In this document: piece by piece, positions 6,869 to 39,386 of the stretch
Numbering within the stretch: position 1 is the first letter of the stretch
How the letters are laid out: each line of letters starts with the position of its first letter
Notes under the pieces: generated by a model
What the model saw: only the letters and a program-made list of their open reading frames with translations
Told to the model about the DNA's origin: nothing
Database searches by the model: none
Position numbers and translations under genes: made by a program
Origin: Henricia sp. BOLD:AAB3569
Lineage: Eukaryota; Echinodermata; Asteroidea; Spinulosida; Echinasteridae
NCBI GenBank assembly: GCA_037783545.1
Contig: JBBELK010000094.1
Span: forward strand, 186,001-250,000
Reading direction: 5' to 3'
Length of the DNA: 64,000 bases

Positions 6869-6975
6869 AAAGGCACAGGCTCGTCAGCAATGCGCGCGAG
6901 CCAAATTCGTGCCACGAAATACGCAGCTCCATGCCTTTGCTATGGAGCTGCGTATTTCGTGGCACGAATTTGGCG
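6869..6975. mobile_element. Hairpin MITE (GCAGCTCCAT family), copy 1, inside the LINE
   Basis: Inverted arms (CAAATTCGTGCCACGAAATA..GCAGCTCCAT) flank a 9-base loop, GCCTTTGCT. The left arm continues outward with AAAGGCACAGGCTCGTCAGC. The right outer arm is missing, and about 20 RT codons between DCVDH and FKSYL are missing with it. Confidence 0.8.
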
Positions 6976-7195
6976 AATATGGTCAACGCAGTCAAATGCC
7001 TTACTGAGATCTAGGAAAACTGTTCTGGTCATTTTCCCGTGATCCATAGCTTGAAGACACTCGTTTGTCAAATCGTTTAGTGTACTTTCTGTTGAGTGCA
7101 AAGGCCGAAATCTAGATTGACAAACAGGAATAAAATTGTTTTCATCAAGATATATACGACTACCTGTTTGAGTGTATCCATCTTTCTATAGGATT

Positions 7196-17690: not shown

Positions 17691-19500
17691 AATTTCTCCA
17701 CATTACGTAACCACCGTGCACGTGATGACGTCATCAGTAGTATATATGTAGTCATAAAGTCAACATGTGAGGGAACATTTCGTTCCGTAGAAAAATGGTC
17801 AAATTCCCTACCACTTTGGCTCTATTTGCATTCAAAGTGCTAAAAAAGTGTACATTTTCGAACCTCTTCCGGTTTGGACCGGAGGTTTGGGTCACACAGG
17901 GGTCATGCCATTGTATGATTTGTTCAGTTTATTGCGACCTATCATGCTGTGAAAGAATTGTTCAAGTATCTATTACGATTCTTGAGATATGAATTTTTGA
18001 AATAATAACCATTTAATTTTTGTAATTTGACACCTGTGACGATATCATGACGTCACAATGTTGTGCACAAATTGTTCAACAATTTGATAAACATCAAGTT
18101 CTTAAATGTGGCGAAAAAATCACGCAAATATCTGCTGTAGTTCTCAAGATACAGCATTTGTAAACAATTCAGCTCCAAATTTGCGTATTTTGACACCACA
18201 TTACGTAACTACCGTCCATGTGATGACGTCACCAATGGTATAGTCAAAAAGTCCACATGTGTGGAAACATTTCGTTCCGTAGAAATATGGTCAAATTCAC
18301 TACCACTTTGAATCTATTTGCATTCAAAACGCTTTAAAAAATGCACATTTTCGAACAACTTCCGGTTTGGACCGGAAGTAGGCGTCACACAGGGGTCATG
18401 ACATTGTATGATTTGTTCAGTTCATTTAGACTTATCATGTTGTGAAAGAATTGTTCAAGTATCTATTACGGTTCTTGAGATATGAATTTTGGAAATAATA
18501 ACCTTTGAATTTTTGTAATTTGACACCTGATGACGTCATGATTACGTCACACTTGATGCCATCATGATACTATACATTCTGGTGAAAGTCTGCCGTAGGG
18601 CCTATGTCTGTATCTAATTTACTAACGATTCAGCTTGGTTTGATGGGCATTGTTACTGGTAAGTGTAAAAACTGAGATTCTCAGTTTCGTTGAACTTTGA
18701 CCTCCAATTGACCCCAGAAGGAAGGGTCAGATGACAATGCCCACACAAAGAAAATTGTAGAACAGAATGTCATCTATAAACCTGCCAAATACGAAGATCA
18801 TGGGTCACGTGGTTTTCAAGACGGAAGCATTTTAAAATATGCATACTTTGGTTTTTTGGGGGGTGTAATTTGATACTTGATGACGTCACGATAACGTCAC
18901 GCTTGATGCCATCATAATATTATACACGCTGGTGAAAGTCTGCCATAGGACCTATGTCTGTACCTAGTTACTTAAAGATTCAGCTTGGTTTGATGGGCAT
19001 TGTTGCTCAATAAGTGCAAAAATTGAGATTTTCGTTTTCGTTGAACTTTGACCTCAGATTGACCCCAGAAGGAAGGGTCAGATGAAAATGCCCACACGAA
19101 GAAAATTGTAGGCCATGATCTGATATATAAGCCTGTCAAATACGAAGATCATGGGTCACGTGGTTTTCTAGACGGAAGCATTTTAAAACATGCATATTTT
19201 AGTCATATTTGGGTTGTAATTTGATACCCGATGACGTCACAATGACGTCACACTTCAGTGCACACCTTCACATTGGGATTGATGTTCCTACCAAGTTTCA
19301 AGTTGATAGCTTGAACCGTTTTGAAGAAAAGCTCTGGAAACGTTTGAGTGGAAAAAGAAGAAAAAAAAAAAAAAAAAAAAAAAAGAAATCGTACAATAGT
19401 AATAGGTGATCGGAATGAGTTCCGATCACCTAAAAAAAAAAAATAAAGAAATCGTACGAGAGTAATAGGTGATCGGGCTGTTGGCCCGATCACCTAATAA
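17691..19500. mobile_element. TGACGTCA-rich composite repeat, copy B (uninterrupted)
   Basis: Same module order as copy A: two 490-bp modules (CATTTCGTTCCGTAG at 17779 and 18268), then two 350-bp modules (CTGGTGAAAGTCTGCC near 18580 and 18930), then an A-rich end. It terminates in two perfect hairpins built on AGGTGATCGG..CCGATCACCT (about 19405-19431 and 19467-19495). At 18561-18580 it keeps the unoccupied site equivalent to the insertion point in copy A. Confidence 0.75.
19405..19496. repeat. Paired GGTGATCGG hairpins at the end of copy B
   Basis: Two short palindromes, AGGTGATCGGAA..TTCCGATCACCT and AGGTGATCGGGC..GCCCGATCACCT, are separated by an A-rich spacer with an AAATCGTAC word repeated before each. 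The same GGTGATCGGG word occurs once near each end of copy A. Confidence 0.75.
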
Positions 19501-21690: not shown

Positions 21691-21832
21691 GACCCCTTGC
21701 ACGGGCGGCCATGACAGGGGTCAGTCACATTGTCACCGTGCATCATGCATGAGTAGGCACTTTGTGTATCTATTGTCACATCAATTAAATATGACAACCT
21801 GCCCCCTGTCATGGCCGGTGGTTCAAAGGGTC
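21691..21832. mobile_element. MITE at the FERRY3 stop codon, TA target duplication
   Basis: Left end GACCCCTTGCAC..GGCCATGACAGGGG; right end is the complement (CCCCCTGTCATGGCC..AAAGGGTC). TA at 21689-21690 and 21833-21834 fits a TA target duplication. The FERRY3 stop (TAG, minus strand, 21834-21832) consists of that TA plus the first base of the element. Confidence 0.8.
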
Positions 21833-21924
21833 TATTTGTGTTGCGACAGGTCCACTGCTCGAGACAGTCTGAAAATCTGTGGCAGTTGAGTACTTAGTTG
21901 GGCAAAAAGATCGTCCGAGATGCC
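21832..21924 (-). CDS. FERRY3: FERRY3 exon 12 (terminal)
   Basis: Residues 529-558: [20 protein letters not shown], then [10 protein letters not shown] and TAG. Acceptor TTTTTACAG. The length and the PQIFR core match the family C-terminus. The stop straddles the edge of the MITE at 21691-21832. Confidence 0.9.
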   Translation of the reverse strand, partial: GISDDLFAQLSTQLPQIFRLSRAVDLSQHK

Positions 21925-24900
21925 CTGTAAAAAGAGAGAACAGTTAACACAAACACACAAAAACAAAATAGGGATGAGCGAAATATCATATGGACCTCAT
22001 CGGGATTCGAACCTGGGATCTTTGACACACCGGGCAGATGCTCTACCAGCTACAAGTTCACAAATTAGAATAGCATTTGGTATGGTGTCTCAGGTGCAAG
22101 TCCCGATGAGGATTATAATGTTTCTCTTTTGAGGACAATAACATTTAATTTTTGGTAAAATCAAAGCTAGTGCGCTATATTTTGCACTTAAAAGGTTTTG
22201 TTTTTCCCCCCGACAATTTATGCCCAGTTATCCCAAAGCACTGAAAAATGGGCAAAGAAGAATGCTTTTGTGTACAACTGTTGTATACAAACATATGGGG
22301 CCTGCCAGACAATCTGGGCTTGCCCTGGAACATTTGGGTCAAGCTTTCAGTGGGGCTTAAAGGCACATTCGCTCTGACTGAAAGGGAAACTTGTGGAGTC
22401 TGAAAATTGTTGGCCGAAAATTTAAAAAAAAATAATAAAAAATAACCGACAATAATAACAGTATGTTCGTGCGTCAGAGGGTTAAAAACTGTACATACCT
22501 TGGGCACAAAAAACTGTACGGTGCGACTTTCACTGCCGCCCCATTGGGCCATCTCCATCATAAACCCCTTGATGCACTTTAGTACAAGCTCCGCCCTCTT
22601 GACGCACCACGCGATGGTCATCTCCTGTCACACATGAAGAAATTTGCGTACTAAGCAGATGAATAAATCAACACATAAATTGCATGAAACAACCTTGACA
22701 GAAAAATCATATGGGCCTCATCGGAACTTGAACCCGAGACCTCTGACTCTGGGCAGATGCTCTACCAGCTGTGCTTTGAGGCACAGTGGTATACTCCCTC
22801 AGGTTTTCCCCCATGACCTCTGACGCACTGGGAAGATGCTCTACCAGCTGAGATACAAGGCACAGTGGTATACTCCCTCAGGTTTTCCCCAAGACCAATG
22901 ACACGGGCAGATGCTCCACCATGCAGCTGTGCTTTGAGGGACAGTGGTATACTCCCTCAGATTTCCGCATGCCGGTAGAGCATCTGCCTGGTGTGTCAGA
23001 GGTCTTGACAAAAATCTGAAGGAGTATACCACTGTGCCTGATAGCTCAGCTGGTAGAGCATCTGCCTGGTGTGTCAGAGGTCTTGGCAAAAACCTGGGGA
23101 GTATACCACTGTACCTCATAGCTCAGCTGGTAGAGAGCATCTGCCTGGTGTGTCAGAGGTCTTGGCAAAAACCTGAGGAGTATGCCACTGTGCCTGATAG
23201 CTCAGCTGGTAGAGCATCTGCCTGGTGTGTCAGAGGTCTTGGCAAAAACCTGGGGAGTATACCACTGTACCTCATAGCTCAGCTGGTAGAGAGCATCTGC
23301 CTGGTGTGTCAGAGGTCTTGGCAAAAACCTGAGGAGTATGCCACTGTGCCTCATAGCTCAGCTGGTAGAGCATCTGCCTGGTATGTCAGAGGTCATGGCA
23401 AAAACCTAAGGGAGTATACCACTGTGCCTCATAGCTCAGCTGGTAGAGAGCATCTGCCTGGTGTGTCAGAGGTCTTGGCAAAAACCTGAGGAGTATGCCA
23501 CTGTGCCTCATAGCTCAGCTGGTAGAGCATCTGCCTGGTATGTCAGAGGTCATGGCAAAAACCTAAGGGAGTATACCACTGTGCCTCATAGCTCAGCTGG
23601 TAGAGAGCATCTGCCTGGTGTGTCAGAGGTCTTGGCAAAAACCTGAGGGAGTATACCACTGTGCCGCATAGCTCAGCTGGTAGAGCATCTGCCTGGTGTG
23701 TCAGAGGTGTTGGGGAAACCTGAGGGAGTATACCACTGTGCTTCTTAGCTCAGCTGGTAGAGCATCTGCCTGGTGTGTCAGAGGTCTTGGCAACCTGAGG
23801 GAGTATACCACTGTGCCTCATAGCTGAGCTTGTAGAGAGCATCTGCCTGGTGTGTCAGAGGTCTTGACAAAAACCTGAGGGAGTATACCAATGTGCTTCT
23901 TAGCTCAGCTGGTAGAGCATCTGCCTGGTGTGTCAGAGGTCTTGGCAAAAACCTGAGGGAGTATGCCACTGTGCCTGATAGCTCAGCTGGTAGAGCATCT
24001 GCCTGGTGCGTCAGAGGTCTTGGCAAAAACCTGAGGGAGTATGCCACTGTGCCTGATAGCTTAGCTGGTAGAGCATCTGCCTGGTGCGTCAGAGGTCTTG
24101 GCAAAAACCCGAAGGAGTATACCACTGTGCCTCATAGCTCAGCTGGTAGAGCATCTGCCCACAGAGTCAGAGCCTTACTTGAGCCTGGTTTCCATATCAT
24201 CGCAACAAACGCAGAGACCCAAATTAGACGTAAACTGCAACGCAAACAATAATGCAGACAGTCGGCAAAGTTGAATCAAGTTTAACTTCGCCAATTGTTT
24301 CCATCAGTGTTTGCGTTGCAGTTGTTTGCGTCTAGTCTGTGTGCATGTGTTACGATTATAGGACAGTTTCAAGCTGTCACGGGTAACAAAACCCTCCTGT
24401 GTTTGTCCTCCAGATCGGGGGAGAGAATAGAGCCTCGTCTATTATCTTCCCGAACTGGAGGACAAACACAGATGTTTAGTGACAGCGTGATACCGCTCTA
24501 TATGGAAACTAGGCTTTATCCTGTTCATGAAGCCGGCCATACACCTTGCGTTCCGACTCCGTTGCGATTGCACAGACTCTCCAAATTTTCTACGATTGCG
24601 TTGCGACGGACACATACACAAAATCGTGACCCCATCAGAACGCATCGCAAAACCTGTACACCTTGTGATGCGACTGCACAACATGCGCTATCGTGATCGG
24701 ATCACGGACGAAACGGCTTAAGTCACAACCATCTTCTATTTGAGTAAAGTTTTTCCAGTCAATTACATCATGACGACAATTTTGAGACGTTGCAAATTCC
24801 AAAGTATATGGGTTTCAATCACTGCACCTACCTCATACATTTCATAGAGCAAAAACAGAGGCAACGTGACAGCATGAATGTCAAACTCTACGCAGCATTT

Positions 24901-27900
24901 GAGAATGTTTCTCAGCGCCAGGATGCAGGGGTGTCGTGAGTTGATGTCGCTGCCTCGCAGGGTGTCGTCACTGACGAGGTGAAAGACGATGTGGACTTCG
25001 GCCAGGTTGGAGTGCTTGGTGATGTAAAAATCGCCTGCAGAAGGCAGAAGAAAACATAGGGGGATTCCATGAAGTTAAAGGGGGAATCAGAGTTTATTTC
25101 TCCACTTTTCACGAGAATAAAAAGGTATTGTATTGATCCTCGGTTACTAGAGAGATGAATTCCGAATAAAAAATAAGAAAATTCCACCCCTGTTAAAAAT
25201 TAGGGACAATTGTTCATCGTTGGGTTACCTTTTATTATGCGAACAACGGACGGATTATGTGAATCTTTGCCCCCTCCTTCATCCGTGGCTCCAGCCTGGT
25301 GTATCCCAGCAATATTAATGGATTAAGAAACATCTTGGGCCAATGCTAATTGAAACTTTCACCCCTCTTGAGTATATTTATTAACACCAAGAGAATCCAC
25401 ATAGGTAAACTACACACAAAGGAAGATTGAATTCCAAAATACCGAGCCTGACCGTAAAACACCGAGTGTTTCAAAAACGGCCTATGTGGAACAGATTTTG
25501 CGCATGTATCCACACGTCCAGACGTATCACGTGCATAGCTACACCCTGGTTACTGCTATCGGGAAAATACTTCAATATCGTTAAGCAGATGGATCGAAAA
25601 AGGTAGGAGGATTGTATTTGTTTTCATCGACTGGTTCAAATATTTTTATTCCCGCTCCAGGGGAATAAATTGGAAAATGCCTAGCCGTTGCGAAGTGGTC
25701 AAGTAAAATAACGACTTGTTGGTCTCCTATTGGCCATTTTGTGGAAATCCAAACCCAGGGGCGGATCCAGGATTTTGAAAAGGGGGGGGGGGGGCGTGAA
25801 ATTTTTAAGCATGAAATGCTGACGACAATGAAATAGCGAGCGCGAAGCCCTAACGGCTTCTAGATAGATTCTAGATGCTCTGTGGTGCGATCTAGGGCAA
25901 TATTTAACCACTTTAAGCAGAAAAAGTGTGCACAAAAAGTTGATTTTTTATATTTTTAAATTCTTTTTTTTAAAAGGGGGGGCGGGCGCCCCCCACGCAC
26001 CCCCCTATCCGCCTCTGAAACCTGGTGGAAGCATGCTAATTCTGAAATCATCTTGAAGAAAGCCACCACCATTCCATATACCTGGCTTGAGATTGGACGT
26101 TATCTCTCCATCTTCTGCTGAGGACTGTCTAGATTCGTTAGAGGCTAATGATCTTCTATCGCCACTCCCACTGCTGGACCCTAAAAGGAAAAACCACTTT
26201 GTTTGAATTTAATCTGTTTCCCTTTTCTGGTGTAATATGAGCTTTAAAAAGATACGCAAATTTATCGAGGCGGCTGAGAGATGTAACATAATAATAATGT
26301 TGGATTCTTATATAGCGCTCATGTCCACCCTGCGGGGTGCTCCTGGCGCTGTTGCCATTATTACCGCTGCCATCAGGAAATCACCATTTCACTTCAACTA
26401 GGTGGCTCCTGGCCAGGCGCTCAACCCTATCAGCACTCAAATTATGGCATTCCCCTTAACAGCTTCCCAAATATTGCTTGGGTTGACGAGGCAACTAATT
26501 TGCATGACCGTAGCTATGACCGCCGCAAGGCTAACTGCACCAGCCTTCGTAAGAGCCACTGAGGCAGGGTGAGCCACTCTGCACGAAGTGCTTCCCTGAG
26601 CTCCTGTACTTCTGGGGTTGGCACTAGGCAGCGGTTGGCATTTCAGGCAGAATGGCACACCCTGCCTCAGTGGCTCTTAAGGGGGCTGGTGCAGTCAGCC
26701 TTGTCACAAGAGGTGTTCCTGATTGATAATTTCTTTTTATAAATTTATGAAACATTTATAACTGCTTACAGTGGTACTACAACAAAGTTTTTCTTGAATC
26801 TGCAGGCTAAATAAGAGAAAATTACATTTATTCTGGACAGTTTCTAACTACTTTTTCCTGCATGACGGTTTCCCAATTATGACTTAAAATAATAATTAAA
26901 TACAGGGTGGCACAGGAAGGCACAGGCTCGTCAGCAATGTGCGCGCGCAAAATTTGTGCTGCAAAATACGCAGCTCCATAGCAAAGGCATGGAGCTGCGT
27001 ATTTCGTGGCAAGAATTTGGCGCGCGCATTGCTGACGAGCCTGTGCTTTTAAAGACTGTAAAAACAAATTATGCATGAGCTTTCATAGCAACAGCTACTT
27101 CATCAGAACAATGACAGGAGTGCACAATTCAAGAAATTGTTCCTTTTTGGGGGGAGGGGAGGGGTTCTAATTTACCATCCTGACTGACTCTCTCTGCTTT
27201 CCGTGCTTTGCGTAGGATGTTTGCCTGGACTGCATGTTGCTGTATAACCCTGAGTTGAGTGTCCAGGTCGGGAAAGTGGAAGTCGGTTGATTGCTGACAC
27301 ACGGCGGCAAAATCTGGGAGTGAATATTAAAAAACAAAACAAAATACATACTCTGACTGAAAGATCAAGGTAGCTGAACGATATAATTTTTTCGGTCAGT
27401 AACATGTATGACCACCTCTTGTGGCAAGGCTGTACACCACTCTGCCTGAAGGGCCTCCCTATTAAAGCTCCTGCACTTCTGGGGCCGTTTGTGAAATGCA
27501 CAGCTCCAGAGGTCCACTACAGGTTTCTACCAACTACAGAATTCTCCCAGAAACAGAAAATGTCACATTTCATTGCTGTGAGAATCACTTAGTTCAAACA
27601 GGTCCACTTGGACCTGAACAAAAATAACTGAAGTGGAACAGTCTTGAAAGTGATTGAAAAAATTGGGTGGTTGGTGGATTAGTGCCTTGTGATTCACAAG
27701 TTCACTGTATTCAACAAACAAGAATCAATATTTTTTAGGAAGATTGCTTTGTTTTTCAATCTTGTCGGGAGAGACAACAAATGGCAAAAGTAGAAAGGTT
27801 AGTAAACTATTACCCCAATCTCACTTACTAGAGAAATCACTTCGTCCGACCACGATTCGACGATGATTCGACGAAGAGATTTCCTTATGTGAACGCACGC

Positions 27901-30900
27901 CTCTTCATTCGACGATGATTAGAATCGCTTCATTCGACGAAGAGATCGCTTCATTCGACGAAGCAAATTTGTAATGTGAACGGCTCCCTTCGTTCGACGA
28001 AGCGATTTTGCGGGCCTGCGTTTTGCGTCGAGCGCCTAGCAAGAGTTGTTTTTGATGCGCCGCTGGAAAACCACACAGCGCGTCTAGACGCTTGAAGCTC
28101 AGCGCTTGGTGCGCGACGCACATGTACGACCTCCCACGGCTTCATTCGATATTGTTAGCGGTCGCTCTTCGTTCGATCTTCGTTAAGTAATAAATGAACA
28201 CACGCTTCATTAACTAACGATGATTAACTAATCTTCGTTGAACGAAGCGATTTCTCCAGTGAGAACAGGGTCTATGTTTAGCATTAACTAATTTATCCAG
28301 TTAACATGAAGCAGTACAGTGAAAACACCAAACATTTTGCTTCCACATCCAAATTTGAGATTGCAAATTTCCTGTTTTGTTCCCATGGATAGTATTTAGG
28401 AAGCTATTTATATGATTGAACGAAATCCATTTTCTGGAAAAATCTGATCAACACTACTAAATATTCTGCTATCAGTGAACCACGCTATTTAACTTTGATA
28501 TTCAATTGAATATAAAATATGATGTTTTAAAAGTATGTACAGCGGCATATACAGTGAAACCTGCTATTAAGGCCACCTTGATAAACAGGCCACCTGCATA
28601 TAGTGGCCACCCACCTTTGGTCCCAAATGCCATGTGTATAATGCTTAAGAAACCTCTATAAGGCCAATGAAATTAGATTACTAGTTTCTCGTCAGCGCCT
28701 GCATGTGATTTTGACCCGCACCAAAATATTTCATTATGCCAAAATTTCATTATTTTTCAATTTTTTTTAAAATCAGATGCAAACTACTCCCATACAAACT
28801 ACTCCCATTTCAGTTGTGCAATCGCGATCTGTGTTTTGCAACTTTTGTGTTTATAACCAGACATCTCCTTTGTCATTTCCCATGATTCTGTCATCTTAAC
28901 TTGTTCCTTCAAACACAAGCTACCCGGTAAAACTCAATGGCATTGATACTGGCACCAAACCATATCTGGGCGAGTTTAGAGTCTTATAATAATCGGTTTC
29001 TAAATGGCAGTTCGTGTATGTGTAAAGGTTGTATTTTTCCTTGATTAAATAATGAATAATGAACAATGAAACAAATCCCTCACCAAAATTTGATAAATGG
29101 TTTACGAGAAACTAGTAATCTAATTTCATTGGCCTAAAGAGGCCACCTCTTTATAGTGGCCAGTTTTTTACGATCCCGAGGGGGGCCACTATAGACAAGT
29201 TTCACTGTATTTTACAGAAGCCCTTCATTGCACCTCATTCAAACTAACATTTTGTATACAAACCTCTTTTAATGCCGGTGTACGTATTGATTCTGTCGTC
29301 CACCATGAGAATGAGGCCGGATAGTGAATAGGAGAATAGAGACATTGCTGTTTGCAGCCTCTGGGGTTGAGGTTGTAGGAAGCCGCTGTCATTGGTCAAA
29401 GGATAAAATAGCAACCAATCAATGGTTACGAATACGCATACATTATTTGTCTAATTCCTTGCATTGAATATATTGACATTGCCAGAAAGCCATGTCAAAA
29501 TTTACTTCTTAAGATTTGAGTATAAATGGGTGATTTTAGGGATAATGACCAAAGAAATGCCGGGGTGCATTAATTCGATACAAACGTAGACAAATGTCCG
29601 CGAGTTTGGGAAATTTGGATGCCTTGAAAAACAACTTGGCTCGACCGAAATTTGAACCATGGAACTTCTGCTTAAGGTTAATTGGGACAAAGCCGAGCAG
29701 AGGTTTGGGTCAAATCTTAAGTGATCTCTGGGAGGGGTGGTTATCTCAAGGGTTTATCATAATCCCTCTGTAGGGCTTGCTAAGCTCACATCATAGCCAA
29801 TCTCAATCAGTGAGGAACACCTGCAATACCATGATTCGATACCATCAGTTGGCTTCATAGCTCAATTGGTAGGGCGTCTGCATGTTAAGCAGAAGGTCCG
29901 CAGTTCGAATCCCGGTGGAGCCAAGTTGTTTTTCACTGCATTCAGATTTCTCAAACTCATGGACTTTTGTCCACATTTCTATCTACTACAAATGTTGTCA
30001 AGTATCACCTACTAATTTATATATTTTTTCTCAAAATACTGGAAATTGTGCAATATGTTAATATCTTGTAATCTGTTTTCCTACATAATGGGTTAGGACC
30101 TTTGCATACCCTTCTCTAGTTGGTTTGTGCTTGCAAAGATCTAAGATGTTCACAGACATCAGACGAATGTTGTGCATCGTTTTCATCTGTGCACCTGTGG
30201 GGGAAACAAGACTTGTTAACTTACAGCAATGTTTGTAAACTTCACAAAGGCTATAACATATTTGTATGTTTAGAAATATACAAGACTTTAGGGGCCGTTC
30301 AAAGTTGTAGACATTTTCACAGTTCTACAGAGCGTAGCCTTTTTTAAGACACTACCCTCCCTCCTTCCTCCGAATTACTACTTATGAACATTTTTTGTCA
30401 CTACCATGAAATGTCAACATTTTACAATGCATGTACAGTCGTACGCTGGTGCCGTACCCCCTCCCCCTCCCCCTGCCCCCGTACCAAGGTGAATCGTGAA
30501 GCTTTCCTCTAGCTTGGGTTCCTCAACCATGACGTCTCTCCTGGGGGAAGGCAGAGTTTCGGACATTGCCCGTATGCGCCGGCTGACGGGACCCTCGGTA
30601 CCGTTCCCCCTGCCCTCCCCTCCCCCCTTACCAAGGTGAATCGTGAAGCTTTCCTCTAGCTTGGGTTCCTCAACTACGACGTCTCTCCTGAGGGGAGGCG
30701 ACATTGCCCGTCTCTCCTGGGGGCAGGCAGCGAGTCGGACATTGCCCGGATGCGCCTGCTGACGTGACCCTCCCCACCATTCCCCGTGTCCTCCCCTCCC
30801 CCTAACCAAGGTGAATCGTGAAGCTTTCCTCTAGCTTGGGTTCCTCAACGACGACGTCTCTCCTGGGGCCAGGCAGCGAGTCGGACATTGCCCGTATGTG

Positions 30901-33900
30901 CCGGCTGACTGGACCCTCGATACCATTCCCCCTGTCCTCCCCTCCCCCTAACCAAGGTGAATCGTGAAGCTTTCCTCTAGCTTGGGTTCCTCAACCACGA
31001 CGTCTCTCCTGGGGCCAGGCAGCGAGTCGGACATTGCCCGTATGTGCCGGCTGACGGGACCCTCGATACCATTCCCCCTGTCCTGTCCTCCCCTCCCCCC
31101 TCCCACCTAACCAAGGTGAATCGTGAAGCTTTCCTCTAGCTTGGGTTCCTCAACGACGACGTCTCTCCTGGGGCCAGGCAGCGAGTCGGACATTGCCCGT
31201 ATGTGCCGGCTGACTGGACCCTCGATACCATTCCCCCTGTCCTCCCCTCCCCCTAACCAAGGTGAATCGTGAAGCTTTCCTCTAGCTTGGGTTCCTCAAC
31301 CACGACGTCTCTCCTGGGGCCAGGCAGCGAGTCCGACATTGCCCGTATGTGCCGGCTGACTGGACCCTCGATACCATTCCCCCTGTCCTCCCCTCCCCTT
31401 TACCAAGGTGAATCGTGAAGCTTTCCTCTAGCTTGGGTTCCTCAACCACGGCGTCTCTCCTAGGGCCAGGCAGCGAGTCAGACATTGCCCGTATGTGCCG
31501 GGTGACAGGACCCTCGATACCATTCCCCCTGTCCTCCCCTCCCCCCTCCCACCTTACCAAGGTGAATCGTGAAGCTTTCCTCTAGCTTGGGTTCCTCAAC
31601 CACGACATCTCTCCTGGGGGAAGGCAGCGAGTCGGACATTGCCCGTATGTGCCGGCTGACTGGACCCTCGATACCATTCCCCCTGTCCTGTCCTCCCCTC
31701 CCCCCTCCCACCTTACCAAGGTGAATCGTGAAGCTTTCCTCTAGCTTGGGTTCCTCAACCACGGCGTCTCTCCTGGGGCCAGGCAGCGAGTCAGACATTG
31801 CCCGTATGTGCCAGCTGACTGGACCCTCGATACCATTCCCCCTGTTCTCCCCTCCCCCCTCCCACCTTACCAAGGTGAATCGTGAAGCTTTCCTCTAGCT
31901 TGGGTTCCTCAACCACGACATCTCTCCTGGGGGAAGGCAGCGAGTCGGACATTGCCCGTATGTGCCGGCTGACGGGACCCTCGATACCATTCCCCCTGTC
32001 CTGTCCTCCCCTCCCCCCTCCCACCTTACCAAGGTGAATCGTGAAGCTTTCCTCTAGCTTGGGTTCCTCAACCACGACGTCTCTCCTGGGGCCAGGCAGC
32101 GAGTCAGACATTGCCCGTATGTGCCGGCTGACGGGACCCTCGATACCATTCTCCCTGTCCTCCCCTCCCCCCTCCCACCTTACCAAGGTGAATCGTGAAG
32201 CTTTCCTCTAGCTTGGGTTCCTCAACCACGACGTCTCTCCTGGGAGCAGGCAGCGAGTCAGACATTGCCCGTATGCGCCTGCTGACAGGACCCTCGGTAC
32301 CGTTCTCCATGTCTTCGCGTAGCCGTTTGATCCAGTCCCAGAATTCCTGTCGCTGGGTGTCCTGGAGGTTCTTCAGTTCGCTGTCCCATTTGGCCTCTTC
32401 AAACTAAGTCCAAAGTGATTAACGAACAAATTGTACATGTATACAATTGTACATGTATACGTTTTTTTTAAAAGCAGTGGAAAAAAATGCGAAAATACAG
32501 TATATAAATACAGCCAAAAAAATGCAAATTTGTACTCACAGAAAAATCGAGGAGGCCAAGAGATGTATTTTATCAGTCATTAACCCTAACCCTGCTCAAT
32601 CCTTCAAAATTAATATGATTTTACATACACCCTAGGGCTTTGGGTTAACGTATATGACCCCCCACTTGTAGTAAAAAGCTAACTGCGCCAGCCTCCACGA
32701 GAGCCACTGAGGCAGGGTACGCCACTCTGCCTGAAGGGCCTCCCTGAGCTCCTGCACTTCTAGGGCTGTATTTGAGAAGTGTATTTGAGTCAAAATGAAC
32801 CACATCACAATGCATTAAGTGCATGTTGCGCCTTTTCAAACACAGACGCAAAGCAAAACACCAATGAGATGCCTTCATTTTGACTCCCAAAATGGCAGTC
32901 TGCATACATGTGCGGTGGTTCGCACAAGCTCAATTGGGTTCTTCCAGAGGAGCGCGTGTGGTCTAGTGGGTATGAAGCGGGACTCCCAATCGGAGGTTGT
33001 GGGTTCTAGCCCCACTATGACCAACGTTTCTGTGTCCCTGAGCAAGGCACTTAATCCCAGTTGCCTCGTCAACCCAAGCGATATTTGGAAAGCTGTTAAG
33101 GGAAATGCCACAATCTAACTGCTGATAGGGTTGTGCGCCTGACCAGCAGCCACCTAGTTGAAGCGAAATGGTTCTGGTGATTCCCTGATGGCAGCGAAAA
33201 TATTGGTAACAGCGCCAGGAGCACCCCACAGGGTGGACATATAAGAATCCACCATTATTATTATTCTTCCAGACACAGGAAATGCCACATTCCACTTGGA
33301 CATGGGCAAAATCATTGAACCAGAACAGTCTTGAAAGCAATTCCAAAGTGATCGGTCAACCAGACTAGTGCCTTGTTACCCACAAGTTCACTATATTCAA
33401 CAAACTGAGCCCAACTGAGAATGCGCCCAATTACTTACCTGTATTGTTTCAAAGTGCTGAGCAGCTAGCCTGTTGACCTGCTGGTCACTGTGGGTGTAAT
33501 CTAGGTTCTGTACAGCGGCTTGTATCTGAGCAGCTTGCCTTGATTTGCCATGATAAATGAACAAAAACAATTGCCGATTAATATTAAGACCTTACAATAT
33601 AAAAAGTAACTCGGACATTGTAAATACACCTCTAACTATAAAACTAATACAGTGCAACCTGTATATAATGGCCACCCTCGGGACCCTAAAAACTGACCAC
33701 TATAAGGTGGCCACTTTATAGAGGTTGCACTAGCATTATATCCAAAGATGGTGGCCACTATAAACAGGTGGCCCTCTTTATCGAGGTGGCCTTAACAGCA
33801 GGTTTGACTGTGTCTTATCTGGTCCATGAATTCACTGACAGAAAACAGATTTAATTAAAGTAATTTTGACAGCGTATTTGTTACAATTGACCAAGTATCG

Positions 33901-36900
33901 TGATTTCAATGTAAGTTTTTTTTATTATTATTATTATTATTTCTTTCTGGTATTCATACCAAGGATTACTCAATAGTGCTCATTGCACTGTCACTCGCAA
34001 GCGTGAGGAAACCCATGAAGAATTATAATTAGAAATGGCCAGAGACACCGGGGAATCCCCTTGCTCTTCACGAAAGAATGCTCTGGGATCTTTAGAGTGC
34101 GTTACCATTACCTATTAAACACACTGGACCAACGGCTTTACATCCCTTCCGAAGGATCGAGCAAGTGTGATTAAGTGCCTTGCTCAAGAGCACAAGTGCC
34201 ACAACCCGTCACGGCCCGGAATCGAACCCACATTCTAGTACTGGCACAGCAACTTGAGTTCGACGCACTAGACCGCTCGGCCATAACACCCCACAAGTTT
34301 GAAGGTGACAAGTGCCCATTTTCATTTTTGCAATAAATAGTAGGGGATCCAGGCATAAGAAGGCGGTGCTTGTCATGTAAACTATGTGGACTGTTGAGGC
34401 TTTGTGCATGCGTCAAGCCATCTCTCCTCCACTGCCACAATCAAGAATGCCAAAACCACAGTCACCGCATTCTCGATTGTGGCAGTGTACGTGAGAGATG
34501 ACTTGACGCTTGCACAAAGCCCCAACATTGACGTCATCACATCGCAGTCCACATAGTTAACATGACAATCTAAAACTCCCTATTGATGCTGAAGATGGCT
34601 GCCAGATAAAACACCATTGCAAAAGCATTTAGACAAGGTTGACTGATTTTTAGTGTAGAGTCATTGCCTAGGCAACGAACAAAGGGGTGACGTATTCACT
34701 TCGGCAGTCTATTGCAGGGGTCGAAGGACCAGTAGAATAGACCTTTATCACGGTGCGGCCATCTTCCCTTTTCTCCTATTAAAATTAACGTAACCAAAGC
34801 GAGGCTTGCAGAAAAAATAGTTTGGTCCTGTTTTGAAATTGATTATTGTGTGCATCACAATTCACAATATGGCACAGGCGCAGCGCTGCGCGTGTGCATC
34901 ACAATTCACAATATGGCACAGGCGCAGCGCTGCGCGATCAAGAGCGCGCAGCGTATCATAACGGGAGATACACGCGCTATCGCGAGGTAGCGCAGATGCA
35001 CTGTCTGACACGTACGGTGGGGAACAAGACAAGGATGGACGCACCGTGATAAAGGTCCTGCTGAAAATTTGGTGGTCCACTGGTGCTTTTCAAATTGGCA
35101 CCGAGATACTGCAACACTTTCTGGTTTAAGGTCATTGAGTGCAGGATGGATGGGATTGCTCTTTGATCAAACACTAGGGCATGTCTGGAGAGATCGGAGA
35201 AAGAAATGAAGTTATCTGAAAATGTCTAAAGCGATCAGGAATTGTGGTAACCAGGAATTCTTCGCATTGAATAAGAAATGTTTACTGTGGATTAGGCATC
35301 AGGAAATGAGTTGGTAAATGTTTTCACTGGTCTATCGGACCAGCGTCTTTGACAGATCTAGTGGTCCTTCTGATTTGTTACTAGTCTCGGACCACAGGAC
35401 CAGTGTTAATTTCGACCCCTGCTATTGGATTGGGGCTTTGTGCTGCAGAAATGCACGGTATCCGCAAAAGCTTCACTGTACAGGGTGTTTTTAAAAAAAG
35501 GAAACCGAGATTAATTTGTTAATTTCGTGGAGATGGCTAAATATTTTGGAAATTGGCAACCACCATCTATTAGCTAATGATGTCCTCTTTCTTATGACAC
35601 CACAAAATCCAATTTACGGTAACACATGACTGAGCATGGAGCAGTGTAATCAACCATGTCATAACTGGTCTTGCACCAAAAAGATGTTTTCACAATGAAC
35701 CATGTCTGCCCAGTGCAGGGCTTTTGTTGGGCCTCCAAATTATGCAATCCTCAGCCTGTTATTTCATTGCACACTCCTTAAAAGTCGAAGGACACTGGGG
35801 TTAGGTCGAGACAGGGAAAGGCACCCAAAATGTGTAATCATTGAGAATACAAATTTTGTCGAGGACACACTGGTCTTTCTACTTTTTTTTGGTATGAAAA
35901 TTGTTGGAGTTAGGCTGCGGTGAATCTGGTGCAAAACCAATTCTGACATGGTTGATTACACTGCTCCGTGCTCAGTCATGTGTGACCATAAATTGGATTT
36001 CGTGGTGTCACAAGAAAGAGGACATCATTAGCTAATAGATGGTGGTTGCCAATTTCCAAAATATTTAGCCATCTCCACGAAATTAACAAATTAATCTCGG
36101 TTTCCCTTTTTTTAAAATACCCTGCATATAAAATTTACCTTTCTTGTAATTTGGCAAGAGCCTGATCCCTTTGTATCAGGACATCCTCCACGGCCACAGC
36201 GTAAGTATGTTCTAAACGAAACAGGATCTCCAATGCTGGTGAATGGATGAGCTTGTGGTAAAGTTCTGCTAATCCCACCTCTGGTTTGGGCCTACTGTCC
36301 GGCGCATAGGCGACACACTCCTGGGAAATGGAAGTAAAAATGCGATGGTCTTAATTGGGATTAAAACCGTAAAACGAAATTGGCAACAAGACAACATCCT
36401 ACATAAGAGATTAAAACCAGTATTTTTACGAAACCTCTGATTTAATTTTTTAAAGTTAATTTTGTGCAAAGACTGAAAGAGGGCAGTGTTTTGAATGTTA
36501 AGGGAAATTAAGGAGTTAATCTAGTCATAAGTGAACAGACTTTCTACCGGTAGAAATTCAATAGGAAGGAATGGATTTTTTTCATATACATTGAACACGG
36601 ATTTGGGTGAATTTATATATTGGAATCGATAGCTTACATGTATTCAATTCTAAGATATACTTCCCACTGACACTTCCCACTGACACCGTCGCAAATGTTG
36701 CATTTCTGAGATAAATAAATGATAAAATTACTGCATAAAGTAATGCACAAAATGACGTGCGAGCTGTCTGTGCGTAAGCACGACAACAGAGGGCGCTGCG
36801 CGCGCGCGTGAATGGTTATCTTGTGCACTAACTGAAGGCAATTTTTGAAGAAGAAAACGTGATTTTTCTACAGAAATGCAACATTTGCGACAAAAGTGCA

Positions 36901-39386
36901 AGTGGGAAGTATATATCTTAAGATTACATTATGTGTTGATTCCAGGAGGTAATTTCCTTAAATTCTTTGTTCAATGTATATGAAAAAAATACTGAAGGAA
37001 TTGAGTAGCTGATCATGGCTTCACACCATGAGCATAAAACATATGATTTTTCCACTCTTAAAGGGCCATGACATGCTAAACCACTTTATGCCCAATATTT
37101 GCTTCATATGACGGATTACTTGTGAACAGCAAGACATGCTATTGTTCGTTTGTATGTAAAATCAATCAAAGGTAGCCTTTTTCAACTTTGAAGATTTCAT
37201 TGCAATAAATCACAGACAGAGGGCGCTGTTTGGAGTGCATCACGTAAGGAAAACAGAAGGGAACAGTTAAGAAAAAAACATAAGACCTCAAGTTGGACTT
37301 GTGGCAAATTGCTGCAGTTTCTACCCCCAGTTTTGTCATGGCTTACAGCAGGCAACATGTAAAACAGACTCAAACAGCCATGGATTACAAAAGTTTCAGG
37401 AAAATTGAGAAAAAGGTGGAATCTTTTGTGCACAGTTGAATGTGATTTTCCTGTGTTTGCCTCTTGTGACATCATGACCTTGGTCATGAATATGCATATT
37501 TTCATTAGCATAAAAACTAAAAACCTTTGTTTTAACCCCCAAAGCAAGCTCCAAATAGGATTGTTATGACTGTAACTGAGTAGAGTGGTTTTAAAGCATG
37601 TATTTCATTGATAAAAATCCTAAATAAGGGGCCCTTTAAATGTTTCCATCAAATGTTACCAATGCTTGATGAGTCATTTTAAAGAAAACAAATTCTGATC
37701 AACCTTTCAACTTTTATCGTAAAATTAAAGAAAAATATTATATTAACATAATAACAATTAACACTCCGAACCAAACAGTAGAACATGGCAATCATTTACC
37801 AATGGATACAAGTTCAATGTTTGTGTTACTTCCGTGACTAAAAGGCTGCAGCACACTTTAGAGATTTACCAGCCAACTGGACACCAGGCCGTCAGATGCG
37901 GATGTTTGATTTGCCCCAGTCATTCGGTGTACGGTCAGTCTACCCCGATGTTTCAGCACACACCTTTCCGGTATGTGGGCCGATAGGCAGATTGGCCGGT
38001 AAATCACAAAGGTGTGCAACAGGCATTAACTAAAATCATTCAAATCGAGATAAACACTGAATGTGCCCTCCCTCACCTGTGTATAAGCCCTGGCCCATTT
38101 ATCGGCGATGTTTCCAATGTCCTCATCCCCAGCTTTCTGTAGGGACTCAATCGCTTCTTGGGCATTCTGATCACGAAATGCTGCAGTTTCTTTGGCAATG
38201 AACGTTTCAAGCCTTGATGTGATGTCTGGTGGGTGAACAGCATAAAAGACGGAATTTCAGACAGAAAAAGAGAGAATATTCATGATGTACAATCTTTTTA
38301 CGGTATTTTTTCCGTAACCATTGAACAAAGATTCGAAGGAAATTACCTCCTGGAATCAACATCGTATAATCTAATTTTAAGATATACTTCCCACTTGCAC
38401 TTTTGTCGAAAATGTTGCTTTTCTGTAGAAAAGTCGCATTTTCTCCTGAAATTGCATTCAGTTAGTGCACAAGATAACCATTCACGCACGCGCGCAGCGA
38501 CCTCTGCTGTCGCGCTTACGTACGTACGGACCGCTCGCGCTGTAATTTTGTGCATTAGTTTTATATGCAGTAATTTTTTAATTTATTTAGCTCAGAAATG
38601 CAACATTTCCGACAAAAGTGCAAGTTCAAGTTGGAAGTATATCTTAGAATTGGATGATCTGTTGATTCCAGGAGGTAATTTCATTCAAATCTTTGTTCAA
38701 TGTATAAGGGAAAAAGGTATTTTTTTCATATACATTGAACACGGATTTGGGTAAATTTATATATTGGAATCGATAGCTTATTCAATTCTAAGATATACTT
38801 CCAACTGACACTTCCGTCGCAAATGTTGCATTTCTGAGATAAATAAATGATAAAATTACTGCATAAAGTAATGCACAAAATGACGTGGCGAGCGGTCTGT
38901 GCGTAAGCGCGACAACAGAGGGCGCTGTGTGCGCGCGTGAATAGTTATCTTGTGCACTAACTGAAGGCAATTTTTGAGGAAGAAAACATGATTTTTCTAC
39001 AGAAAAGCAACATTTGCGACAAAAGTGCAAGTGGGAAGTATATCTTAAAATTACATTATGTGTTGATTCCAGGTGGGAATTTCCTTAAAATCTTTGTTCA
39101 ATGTATACGAAAAAAATACCATAATTTTTCCCCTGTAAACTCGTCGATTACTTTTTGGGGTCATTGCAAATGATACACTGACGTGCCTTTAAACCGTGAG
39201 AACGTTGACAACTGACGGCCCCCTACCTTCCTCGACGAAGCACGGCAGGTTGTGGGCGTTCACCAAACGACCGACGAACTCCCGACTGCTGATTTTCAGT
39301 GGTATTGGTACGGGAACACGGAGCTTGGACAGTAGTTCCTTGGTCTTGAACTGGTAATAAAACTCATTCTCTGTGTTCGAGGGCAT
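21832..39386 (-). CDS. FERRY3: FERRY complex subunit 3 (C12orf4 homologue), 12 exons, 558 aa
   Basis: Coding exons (5' to 3'): 39386-39227, 38225-38077, 36320-36139, 33538-33439, 32403-32184, 30194-30110, 29385-29264, 27313-27176, 26180-26082, 25034-24832, 22624-22499, 21924-21832. Every junction is GT-AG, phases agree throughout, and the sum is 1677 nt (558 aa plus stop; the human protein has 552). Diagnostic stretches are [12 protein letters not shown] near the start, [75 protein letters not shown] and SRTVQFFVP. In mammals the protein (Fy-3) is part of the five-subunit FERRY complex, a Rab5 effector that links mRNA and ribosomes to early endosomes. Orthology rests on sequence likeness across the whole length. 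Oddities: the 3' half of exon 5 is tandemly amplified in the following intron, and a MITE forms the stop codon. Confidence 0.95.
21990..22052 (-). pseudogene. tRNA-derived sequence (3' three quarters)
   Basis: Minus strand: TAGCTGGTAGAGC (A-box type), CATCTGCCCGGTGTGTCA, then CAGGTTCGAATCCCGATGAG with a consensus B box. The 5' acceptor half is missing and the anticodon arm does not fold canonically. It is the same family as the arrays nearby. Confidence 0.6.
22499..22624 (-). CDS. FERRY3: FERRY3 exon 11
   Basis: Residues 487-528: [40 protein letters not shown] and PK. Phase 0 on both sides, donor GTATGTAC. Confidence 0.95.
22713..22783 (-). pseudogene. Full-length tRNA-like sequence next to the array
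   Basis: On the minus strand GCCTCA at the 5' end pairs with TGAGGC at the 3' end. An A-box CAGCTGGTAGAGC and a B-box GGGTTCAAGTTCC are present. The anticodon arm has an irregular loop, so a functional tRNA is unlikely. It shows the complete form from which the 78-bp array unit seems to derive. Confidence 0.6.
22740..24170. repeat. Tandem array of a 78-bp tRNA-like unit, about 18 copies, with an inversion
   Basis: The unit reads GTATACCACTGTGCCTCATA, GCTCAGCTGGTAGAGCATCT, GCCTGGTGTGTCAGAGGTCT and TGGCAAAAACCTGAGGGA. It carries the D-arm and A box of a tRNA but no T-arm or B box. About 15 units run on the plus strand from 22975. About three units to the left run on the minus strand, giving a head-to-head junction near 22970. 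The array lies in FERRY3 intron 11 (between exons 10 and 11 of this model it occupies most of the gap). The repetitive ORFs across it are artefacts. Confidence 0.9.
24180..24830. mobile_element. Diverged inverted-repeat elements
   Basis: GACGTAAACTGCAACGCAAAC near 24227 is roughly inverted at 24310-24332. A hairpin with arms CTGTGTTTGTCCTCCAG lies at 24397-24471. Further GATTGCGTTGCGAC words with partial complements follow to 24700. I read this as one or more old foldback elements in an intron. Confidence 0.5.
24832..25034 (-). CDS. FERRY3: FERRY3 exon 10
   Basis: Residues about 419-486: [40 protein letters not shown] and [13 protein letters not shown], a strongly conserved block. Acceptor TTCTGCAG, donor GTAGGTGC. 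Confidence 0.9.
25756..26017. mobile_element. MITE with CAGGGGCGGATCC ends, hAT-like
   Basis: Begins CAGGGGCGGATCCAGG and ends CCTATCCGCCTCTG, flanked by AAACC on both sides (25751-25755 and 26018-26022). G-rich and C-rich tracts follow each end. The CAGRGGCGGAT end type is common in hAT-like elements; the assignment is tentative. Confidence 0.65.
26082..26180 (-). CDS. FERRY3: FERRY3 exon 9
   Basis: Residues about 386-418, a Ser-rich, low-conservation linker: [20 protein letters not shown], then [12 protein letters not shown]. Phase agrees on both sides. The hAT-like MITE at 25756-26017 ends 65 bases away. Confidence 0.85.
26287..26493 (-). repeat. SINE fragment, minus strand (same family as 32946-33262)
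   Basis: Read on the minus strand: GTTGCCTCGTCAACCCAAGC.., a CTGATAGGGTTG..GCGCCTG block, AGCACCCCGCAGGGTGGACA and an ATTATTATT tail. The tRNA head is missing. Confidence 0.7.
26500..26720. repeat. Dispersed repeat (GAGCCACTGAGGCAGGGTG family), copy 1
   Basis: GAGCCACTGAGGCAGGGTG with CTCCTGTACTTCTGGGGTTG, followed by an inverted CACCCTGCCTCAGTGGCTC at about 26652. Related copies lie at 27390-27720, 32675-33415 (split), 43085-43445, 54230-54575 and 55850-56140. Confidence 0.6.
26917..27050. mobile_element. Hairpin MITE (GCAGCTCCAT family), copy 2, complete
   Basis: Both arms are complete, from AAGGCACAGGCTCGTCAGCA to its complement ending GAGCCTGTGCTTTT. The inner arms CAAAATACGCAGCTCCAT / ATGGAGCTGCGTATTTCG flank the loop AGCAAAGGC. 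It lies in FERRY3 intron 8. Confidence 0.85.
27176..27313 (-). CDS. FERRY3: FERRY3 exon 8
   Basis: Residues about 340-385: [40 protein letters not shown] and ERVSQDG. Acceptor CACTCCCAG, donor GTAAATTA. Confidence 0.9.
27390..27720. repeat. Dispersed repeat (GAGGCAGGGTG family), copy 2
   Basis: Shares CTCTGCCTGAAGGGCCTCCC, CTCCTGCACTTCTGGGGC, AGAAACAGAAAATGTCACAT and CAGTCTTGAAAG with the other copies, ending CACAAGTTCACTGTATTCAA. It holds no ORF of note. Confidence 0.65.
27815..28274. mobile_element. TIR element with TTCGACGA internal repeats
   Basis: The left end AATCTCACTTACTAGAGAAA matches the complement of the right end GCGATTTCTCCAGTGAGAAC. The interior repeats TTCATTCGACGA and its complement several times. 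No transposase. Confidence 0.65.
28552..29207. mobile_element. MITE with CAGTGAAACCTG ends, TA duplication, carrying a nested element
   Basis: CAGTGAAACCTGCTATTAAG at the left and TATAGACAAGTTTCACTG at the right are flanked by TA. Interior words such as GTGGCCAC recur. An element at 28662-29134 is inserted in the middle. A second, uninterrupted family member lies at 33650-33810. Confidence 0.8.
28662..29134. mobile_element. Nested TIR element, GGCCAATGAAATTAG ends, TAA duplication
   Basis: A 30-bp perfect inverted repeat, GGCCAATGAAATTAGATTAC..TCTCGT, stands at both ends. TAA flanks both sides (28659-28661 and 29135-29137). A TWA target duplication is typical of PIF/Harbinger elements. The 410-bp interior is non-coding. 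Confidence 0.85.
29264..29385 (-). CDS. FERRY3: FERRY3 exon 7
   Basis: Residues about 299-339: [20 protein letters not shown], then [20 protein letters not shown]. Phase picks the acceptor CAATGACAG at 29386 over a nearer CCCCAG that would break the frame. Confidence 0.9.
29851..29923 (+). tRNA. tRNA-like gene or pseudogene, anticodon GTT (Asn)
   Basis: A 73-nt cloverleaf: acceptor GGCTTCA/TGGAGCC (one G-T pair), D stem GCTC/GGGC, perfect anticodon stem TCTGC/GCAGA with loop ATGTTAA, T loop TTCGAAT and discriminator A. The T stem CGCAG/CCCGG pairs at only two of five positions, and the body does not resemble usual animal tRNA-Asn. It is probably a tRNA-derived repeat or pseudogene, related in its 5' half to the 78-bp arrays. 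It lies in FERRY3 intron 6, antisense to the gene. Confidence 0.45.
30110..30194 (-). CDS. FERRY3: FERRY3 exon 6
   Basis: Residues about 271-299: [20 protein letters not shown], then KHKPTREG. Acceptor TTCCCCCACAG, donor GG|GTATGC. It follows the exon-5-derived array on the transcript. Confidence 0.9.
30475..32333 (-). repeat. 12-copy tandem array of FERRY3 exon 5 end plus its 5' splice site
   Basis: The marker ACCAAGG (complement of the exon end and donor) occurs at 30483, 30630, 30806, 30951, 31110, 31256, 31402, 31556, 31715, 31869, 32028 and 32182. Spacings are 147, 176, 145, 159, 146, 146, 154, 159, 154, 159 and 154. Each unit holds about 115 bases of exon 5 (coding [13 protein letters not shown].. 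to [11 protein letters not shown]), the donor GT and 30-45 bases of purine-rich intron. The copy at 32184-32403 joins the unique 5' part of the exon. All 12 keep GT: GTAAGG in most right-hand copies, GTTAGG in copies 3-6, GTACGG in copy 1. Confidence 0.95.
32184..32403 (-). CDS. FERRY3: FERRY3 exon 5 (source of the tandem array)
   Basis: Residues about 198-270: [57 protein letters not shown], then [17 protein letters not shown]. It is bounded by acceptor GGACTTAG and donor CTTG|GTAAGG. Its last 145 bases or so are repeated eleven more times in the next intron. Confidence 0.9.
32640..33415. repeat. Dispersed repeat (GAGGCAGGGTG family), copy 3, split by a SINE
   Basis: GAGCCACTGAGGCAGGGTAC..TCCTGCACTTCTAGGGCTG ends near 32768. 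The family resumes at about 33268 with CCAGACACAGGAAATGCCAC and runs to CACAAGTTCACTATATTCAA. The SINE at 32946-33262 and about 180 bases of other sequence lie between. Confidence 0.65.
32946..33262 (+). repeat. tRNA-derived SINE, plus strand
   Basis: The head GTGTGGTCTAGTGGGTATGA, with GTGGGTTCTAGCCCC as B box, is tRNA-like. It is followed by a CCTGAGCAAGGCACTTAAT core, a long body ending AGAATCCACC and an ATTATTATTATT tail. A truncated antisense copy is at 26287-26493. Confidence 0.8.
33439..33538 (-). CDS. FERRY3: FERRY3 exon 4
   Basis: Residues about 164-197: [20 protein letters not shown], then [13 protein letters not shown]. Donor GTAAGTAA is strong. The acceptor (AAATCAAG) has a poor pyrimidine tract but is set by phase. 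Confidence 0.85.
33650..33810. mobile_element. MITE with CAGTGCAACCTG ends
   Basis: CAGTGCAACCTGTATATAAT at the left, AACAGCAGGTTTGACTG at the right, with repeated GTGGCCACT words inside. Same family as 28552-29207. Confidence 0.7.
33926..34290 (-). repeat. tRNA-Leu-derived SINE, minus strand
   Basis: The minus strand starts GGTGTTATGGCCGAGCGGTC, then TCGAACTCAAGTTGC and a B box TGGGTTCGATTCC. This class II layout with CAA in the anticodon position resembles tRNA-Leu(CAA). The body matches 8032-8345, and the element ends in an AATAATAATAA tail at its left edge. Confidence 0.75.
34371..34567. mobile_element. Foldback element, TGTCATGT.AACTATGTGGACT arms
   Basis: The left arm runs TGTCATGTAAACTATGTGGA .. 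GGCTTTGTGCATGCGTCAAG .. CACTGCCACAATCAAGAATG. The right arm is its diverged complement, with an extra TTGACGTCATCACATCG. The loop is CCAAAACCACAGTCACC. Confidence 0.75.
34715..35421. mobile_element. TIR element, CAGGGGTCGAA ends, CTATTG duplication
   Basis: CAGGGGTCGAAGGACCAG at the left and CACAGGACCAG..TTCGACCCCTG at the right are flanked by CTATTG (34709-34714 and 35422-35427). A second inverted-repeat element occupies 34740-35057. Confidence 0.75.
34740..35057. mobile_element. Nested MITE, GACCTTTATCACGGTGCG ends
   Basis: GACCTTTATCACGGTGCG at the left is answered by CGCACCGTGATAAAGGTC at the right. Inside, a 44-bp unit (GTGTGCATCACAATTCACAA..GCGCTGCGC) is duplicated in tandem at about 34848-34938. 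Confidence 0.85.
35481..36124. mobile_element. TIR element with about 200-bp inverted repeats, CAGGGTG ends
   Basis: The left arm 35481-35683 (CAGGGTGTTTTTAAAAAAAG, GGAAACCGAGATTAATTTG ...) is repeated inverted at about 35925-36124. The loop of about 240 bases has no recognisable protein. Related ends occur at about 45242 and 58330. The right edge is 14 bases from FERRY3 exon 3. Confidence 0.85.
36139..36320 (-). CDS. FERRY3: FERRY3 exon 3
   Basis: Residues about 104-164: [20 protein letters not shown], then [20 protein letters not shown]. It ends in LAKLQER split by the donor GTAAATTT. A long-TIR element ends only about 14 bases beyond the donor. Confidence 0.9.
36575..36993. mobile_element. 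Foldback element (CATATACATTGAACA family), copy 1
   Basis: The ends TTTTTTTCATATACATTG and CAATGTATATGAAAAAAAT are inverted. Inner arms hold ATATACTTCCCACTGACACT / AAGTGCAAGTGGGAAGTATA. The centre has CGACAACAGAGGGCGCTG. Confidence 0.8.
37059..37639. mobile_element. TTAA-flanked element (AGGGCC ends), copy 1, inverted
   Basis: TTAA|AGGGCCATGACATG at the left and ATAAGGGGCCCT|TTAA at the right. About 580 bp, closely matched by 49662-50243 and 57442-58023 in the opposite orientation. TTAA at both sides of all three copies suggests a piggyBac-like non-autonomous family. Confidence 0.8.
38077..38225 (-). CDS. FERRY3: FERRY3 exon 2
   Basis: Residues about 54-103: [17 protein letters not shown], then [14 protein letters not shown] and DKWARAYTQ. 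Acceptor CACCCACCAG, donor GTGAGG. Confidence 0.9.
38298..38722. mobile_element. Foldback element (CATATACATTGAACA family), copy 2
   Basis: Begins near GGTATTTTTTCCGTAACC and ends GTATAAGGGAAAAAGGTA. Arms with ATATACTTCCCACTTGCAC / GTTGGAAGTATAT surround a GCGCGCAGCGACCTCTGCTG centre. Copy 3 follows directly, so the two share one boundary. Confidence 0.75.
38718..39119. mobile_element. Foldback element (CATATACATTGAACA family), copy 3
   Basis: Closely resembles copy 1 at 36575, including GCGCGACAACAGAGGGCGCT and TTGATTCCAGG.GG, and ends at GTATACGAAAAAAATACC. It lies in FERRY3 intron 1. Confidence 0.8.
39227..39386 (-). CDS. FERRY3: FERRY3 exon 1 (first coding)
   Basis: Starts [20 protein letters not shown] and reads through [13 protein letters not shown] to NLPCFVEE. 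It ends one base into the next codon before GTAGGG. The ATG is the first in frame and its distance to EFYY matches the family. Confidence 0.9.

Follow-up and report, generated by a model that had tools for sequence, protein, structure and literature searches.

The window analysed here, a 64,000-nt stretch of DNA from the starfish Henricia sp. BOLD:AAB3569 (contig JBBELK010000094.1, positions 186,001 to 250,000), carries the FERRY3 gene (C12orf4) on its minus strand, and the fifth intron of this gene holds a tandem array in which the end of exon 5 and its donor splice site are repeated. The FERRY3 coding region (21832..39386) consists of 12 coding exons and 558 codons without an internal stop when joined at GT-AG borders, which were placed by eye and verified through translation. 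All 12 exons were located by mapping the orthologues of Patiria miniata and Asterias amurensis onto the window, and the best matches of a 346-residue query composed from the exons are the FERRY3 proteins of Patiria miniata (80% identity across 80% of the query length) and Asterias amurensis (76%). Pfam PF10154 matches four of the six scanned open frames, those over exons 4, 5, 6 and 10; the frames over exons 5, 6 and 10 pass the cut-off, and the exon 4 match lies below the curated cut-off. Profile positions 165-239 fall in exon 5 and positions 239-266 in exon 6, so that position 239 marks both the end of the one and the start of the other; this fixes the native junction after 32184 with some confidence, its donor joining exactly to exon 6. 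PF10154 and the co-linear orthologue match identify the gene as FERRY3, and it is apparently a working copy, intact when the native donor is used.

Pfam, the orthologues and the translation agree on the two exons that border the array. Exon 5 (32184..32403, minus strand) has 220 nt and ends in phase 1; exon 6 (30110..30194, minus strand) has 85 nt. The native donor GT of exon 5 (TTG/GTAAGG) occupies 32182..32183 on the minus strand and is the first of a row of 12, since this donor and the DNA preceding it recur 11 times in intron 5. The intron measures 1989 nt, of which 1699 belong to the array; the 290 nt that follow the last exon-like copy (30195..30484, minus strand) are free of repeats and run to the exon 6 acceptor. 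In transcript order, the last exon bases before the 12 donors are 32184, 32030, 31871, 31717, 31558, 31404, 31258, 31112, 30953, 30807, 30632 and 30485, with spacings of 154, 159, 154, 159, 154, 146, 146, 159, 146, 175 and 147 bp. GT is present at all 12 donors, in the form GTAAGG in six (donors 1-5 and 11), GTTAGG in four, and GTAAAG and GTACGG in one each. A 33-base piece of the unit occurs 12 times in the window, each time exactly although three mismatches were allowed, and 0 occurrences are expected from 100 shuffles. The original prediction, made from the sequence of this window, is borne out in that the end of FERRY3 exon 5 is repeated (by PF10154, the orthologue mapping and the 12 donors in a row), that every copy keeps its GT and that six of the 12 have GTAAGG. 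Its account of the unit, about 115 exon bases in repeats of 145-176 bp, is right as to the 12-fold repetition, with measured spacings of 146-175 bp, and needs adjustment in one respect: the copied part of the exon comprises about 115-126 bases, the upper figure taking in a stretch where exon and intron purines look alike.

The units are arranged head to tail, all on the minus strand, and contain the native donor of exon 5. They lie at 32030..32183 (unit 1, 154 bp), 31871..32029 (unit 2, 159 bp), 31717..31870 (unit 3, 154 bp), 31558..31716 (unit 4, 159 bp, 99.4% identical to unit 2), 31404..31557 (unit 5, 154 bp), 31258..31403 (unit 6, 146 bp), 31112..31257 (unit 7, 146 bp, 100% identical to unit 9), 30953..31111 (unit 8, 159 bp), 30807..30952 (unit 9, 146 bp), 30632..30806 (unit 10, 175 bp) and 30485..30631 (unit 11, 147 bp), the last being the most distal copy, followed by the donor GTACGG. 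Unit 10 exceeds exon 5 by 29 nt in the aligned part and repeats GAGAGACG. Tandem Repeats Finder (TRF) reports periods of 146, 154 and 313 for the array; the last is a dimer period and, together with the near-identity of units 2 and 4 and of units 7 and 9, suggests that blocks of units were copied. At the variable columns 22, 29 and 49 of the alignment described below, exon 5 has a minority base in common with different units, a conflict that suggests exchange or conversion among the units and perhaps also with exon 5. The unit border falls where the purines of the exon (GACATGGAGAACGGTACC) and those of the intron (GACAGGGAGAATGGTATC) are alike, and this likeness may have seeded the first duplication. 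A 184-nt piece that covers one unit and extends into the next shows no stable RNA fold (z-score 0.52; an equal or better fold in 133 of 200 shuffles), and no Rfam family matches the array at gathering scores.

The array recurs elsewhere in the same assembly. When an array query is searched against its 740.7 Mb in 2104 contigs, with the best candidates scored, contig C308 shows two adjoining near-full-length matches of 86% identity; they cover about 3.6 kb in all (G000:C308:2457774-2461394), about twice the length of the array in the window. The upper match extends to the end of the query, where the query consists of unrepeated exon 5 sequence; exon 5 is therefore likely to flank this array too. 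The second locus is perhaps the other allele, or else a recent duplicate, with what appears to be about twice as many units. A contig of a related starfish provides an open frame (P0122) with an exon 5 that, judged by eye, matches Asterias amurensis. From this exon the frame runs on across about 122 nt and reaches exon 6 with the reading shifted, intron length and exon 6 frame having been determined by hand; as it reads through this short intron, the array is absent there. Two further sequences (P0121 and P0124) end one or two residues past the junction and are little informative. The FERRY3 proteins of Patiria and Asterias (P0001 and P0002) contain, as judged by eye, a single copy of the repeated segment. 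Array-like proteins were not found either: inspected by eye, none of the four distinct matches (three at E <= 10 with a read-through query, three at E <= 1e-6 with an exon 5 query) has two copies of the segment.

The original prediction held that the repeated exon sequence has no acceptor of its own. This is contradicted by the presence, 56 nt upstream of each of the 12 donors, of an AG preceded by a pyrimidine tract. In exon 5, the stretch from this internal acceptor-like site to the donor corresponds to 32184..32239 (minus strand), and these 56 nt are present in every unit. Unit 10 has two such sites, bringing the total to 13, and a branch-point-like sequence can be read by eye upstream in 10 of the 12 copies (CTGAC in four, CCGAC in six). 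Splice-site scores were obtained with a vertebrate matrix, which is only a guide here because two real FERRY3 acceptors, in addition to that of exon 5, score poorly (-3.89 and -0.07). On this scale the 13 acceptor-like sites reach 5.2-11.4, and 12 of them exceed 5.96, the 95th percentile among 774 AGs taken from the remaining introns of the gene. The highest value, 11.4, belongs to units 2, 4 and 11 and to one of the pair in unit 10, and the internal site of exon 5 scores 9.19. Since the sites in seven of the 11 units fall below the latter value, the copies show no general strengthening.

Use of any of the 11 alternative donors leads to a stop at codon 297, because each of them includes unit 1 (154 bp); for donor 2, 74 nt separate this stop from the exon junction that follows. 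If the native donor is joined to an acceptor-like site in a unit and splicing resumes from a later donor, all 68 combinations stop early. A pseudo-exon that ends at its own donor has a stop inside itself for 12 of 12 acceptor choices, and longer chains of pseudo-exons starting from the native donor enter the same first pseudo-exons and should therefore stop too. The only open use found for the extra sites joins exon 3 to a mini-exon and this to exon 6, with 12 of the 13 acceptor choices; from exon 4, the three acceptors tried of the 13 all give a stop at codon 203. As read from the genomic frame, exon 5's own donor is thus the only one of the 12 that would yield the full protein in this allele. 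Nonsense-mediated decay is known to act on stops that precede a junction by more than about 50 nt, and mis-spliced FERRY3 RNA would probably be degraded in this way. In their sequence, with sites scored as above, the units resemble poison exons, that is, segments flanked by an acceptor-like site and a donor whose inclusion adds a stop. A coding tandem repeat, by comparison, should be readable in frame in the mRNA, and here none of the 11 donors and none of the 68 combinations keeps the frame open.

The 12 copies align without gaps over 126 columns once 29 nt of unit 10 are removed. All 24 variable columns fall within the first 83, and the final 43, which lead up to the donor, show no difference among the 12 copies. 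If the columns are exchangeable, the chance of such an invariant tail is 1.2e-5, and that of a run of this length anywhere is 2e-4 (20,000 shuffles), for a pattern that was spotted post hoc; the chance is less extreme when CpG columns are left out (6.5e-4) or when the 12 informative columns alone are used (0.005). The tail encodes a 14-residue segment, the last part of which, ESFTIHL, is nearly constant in the 15 orthologues compared. Synonymous sites in the tail are not variable either, which selection on the protein, taken as the whole cause, leaves unexplained. In the variable part, 13 of 28 distinct changes are synonymous as against 27-29% expected (P = 0.021 at 27%, 0.063 at 31%). CpG mutation is rejected as the cause of the tail, as the bias persists without CpG columns (13 variable of 99; 40 in the tail, none of them variable). 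The tail may stem from a splicing constraint at the nucleotide level, from localised conversion, or from array lineages that passed through the exon.

The array is probably a minisatellite at an exon-intron junction, and probably a variable number tandem repeat (VNTR), in an apparently working FERRY3 gene whose productive mRNA is made with the native donor. A tandem duplication would have comprised some 115-126 bases at the end of exon 5, the donor, and some 20-33 purine-rich bases at the start of the intron, and exchange or conversion between copies would then have multiplied the unit within intron 5. Productive mRNA would be spliced at the native donor, which heads the row and alone keeps the frame to exon 6, and the 11 downstream donors, together with the acceptor-like site in each unit, would act as decoys. 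Leaky use of these would lengthen exon 5 or add a 56-nt pseudo-exon, introduce a stop and expose the RNA to nonsense-mediated decay, so that the copy number could reduce FERRY3 output and leave the protein unchanged. Some observations weigh against this explanation. On the guide matrix, all 13 acceptor-like sites outscore the real acceptor of exon 5 (0.33), and five of the 11 additional donors equal the native one in score (7.6); with equal donors and better acceptor-like sites, heavy mis-splicing would be expected unless it is suppressed. Moreover, a purely neutral minisatellite would not be expected to leave 43 bases next to the donor unchanged in every copy.

In a rival explanation the units are a row of functional poison mini-exons, each with branch-point-like sequence, acceptor, 56-nt exon and donor, and the array is under selection to tune the FERRY3 level. 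The retention of AG and GT in 12 of 12 copies, the sites in units 2, 4 and 11 and one of those in unit 10 that score above the internal site of exon 5, and the confinement of variation to the first 83 of 126 columns agree with such a function. However, the tail was noticed after the fact and could also be produced by local gene conversion, the acceptor-like site is weaker than the internal one of exon 5 in seven of 11 units (6.93, and 5.2 in unit 5), the donors at places 6-10 and 12 have lost strength (3.57-4.25 versus 7.6 for the native donor), and the single relative with a readable intron (P0122) lacks the array. Functional poison mini-exons are an unlikely explanation, and their strongest form, about a dozen mini-exons with an identical core in one intron, splicing-constrained and varying in number between alleles as a rheostat of FERRY3 expression, is slightly more doubtful still. 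An expansion error of the assembly, with a shorter repeat in the animal, deserves mention since tandem arrays are error-prone and the two contigs differ about two-fold in array length; it is improbable given that the copies differ at 24 columns and in length and that the array is found on two contigs.

Two further explanations would assign the extra sites a place in the protein. Exon 4 and most of exon 5 might be skipped, with exon 3 joined through one mini-exon to exon 6 in a product of 470 residues, for which the frame is open as described above. This product would lose 88 residues inside the Pfam-matched part, a stretch retained in the 12 orthologue sequences examined, and joining exon 4 to a mini-exon leads to a stop with the three acceptors tried; its occurrence is highly improbable. 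The original prediction envisaged a ladder of donors in competition, whose use would repeat the exon 5 segment in frame in the protein, in view of the donor-like GT at all copies and of the spacings of 147 and 159, which are divisible by three. Several donor-like sites are indeed present in the transcript, but the obligatory inclusion of unit 1 removes the in-frame outcome for every alternative donor, and of all the explanations considered this one has the least to commend it. The minisatellite explanation, with a single productive donor, is preferred to all of these.

Other repeats occur in and around the gene. Tandem arrays with a unit of 77-79 bp lie at 22733-24159 (FERRY3 intron 10; about 3 and about 15 copies) and 47980-48819 (11 copies); by inspection their unit resembles the 5' half of a tRNA (GCTCAGCTGGTAGAGC), and no tRNA is reported by ARAGORN at these places. 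In FERRY3 intron 6, on the strand opposite to the gene, a tRNA-Asn-like sequence is called by ARAGORN at 29850-29924 and by Rfam at 29851-29923, the sole Rfam match in the window. It overlaps one arm of a 99-nt inverted repeat and is perhaps a tRNA-derived element. Two separate two-copy arrays of similar sequence with a period of 351 bp are located at 13780-14475 and 18514-19255, and an open frame at 6943-7185 contains a reverse-transcriptase-like stretch (FLDLSKAFDCVDH), which from its motif is probably a remnant of a non-LTR (non-long terminal repeat) element.

Literature searches, in which subscription journals were thinly covered, found no repeat at a FERRY3 splice site. The original prediction likewise knew of no described FERRY3 gene with this structure, but the same arrangement is known from other genes, namely human CBS and ABCA7. 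Human CBS has a 31-bp VNTR at an exon-intron junction, c.1444_1467+7, in 16-21 copies (PMC2630376, PMC1395315). Going by its name, the CBS unit takes in 24 bases from an exon's end and 7 from the beginning of the intron and thereby multiplies the donor as the starfish array does, whereas the starfish unit is 146-175 bp long and includes an acceptor-like site. Work by Lievers from 2001 reportedly deals with the effect of the CBS repeat on enzyme activity. In human ABCA7, the first GT of a 25-bp VNTR in intron 18 serves as the donor of exon 18. Splicing at the donor of the next unit, which retains one unit, and at a cryptic acceptor in the exon is reported to give out-of-frame mRNA with early stops, and exon 19 skipping increases with repeat length (PMC5954066). 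The native donor is the first GT of the repeat in ABCA7 as in the starfish. Alternative donor use is reported for ABCA7 and putative in the starfish, and the ABCA7 unit begins at the GT without exon sequence, unlike the starfish unit, which carries the end of exon 5. For a potato RdRp gene, intron gain by tandem genomic duplication has been described, making intragenic tandem duplication a reported source of new splice sites there (PMC4974935). The starfish duplication is of this general kind but took place at an existing exon-intron border, and its copies apparently remain intronic.

Poison exons of splicing-factor genes, whose inclusion brings in a stop and leads to decay, are generally single and conserved between species. 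Inclusion of a starfish unit would likewise add a stop and entail decay, but the units stand in tandem and, among the sequences examined here, occur in this assembly only. Judged by its layout, the starfish array follows the plan of CBS and ABCA7 with a large unit that bears putative splice signals of both kinds. It adds an echinoderm example to this group of repeats, one whose unit has room for a whole pseudo-exon, and it provides a natural setting for testing how the spliceosome selects one donor from a long series of nearly identical ones that are interspersed with acceptor-like sites. Should the arrays of different length be two alleles of the same animal, RNA assigned to each allele would show directly whether the number of donors and pseudo-exons influences output.

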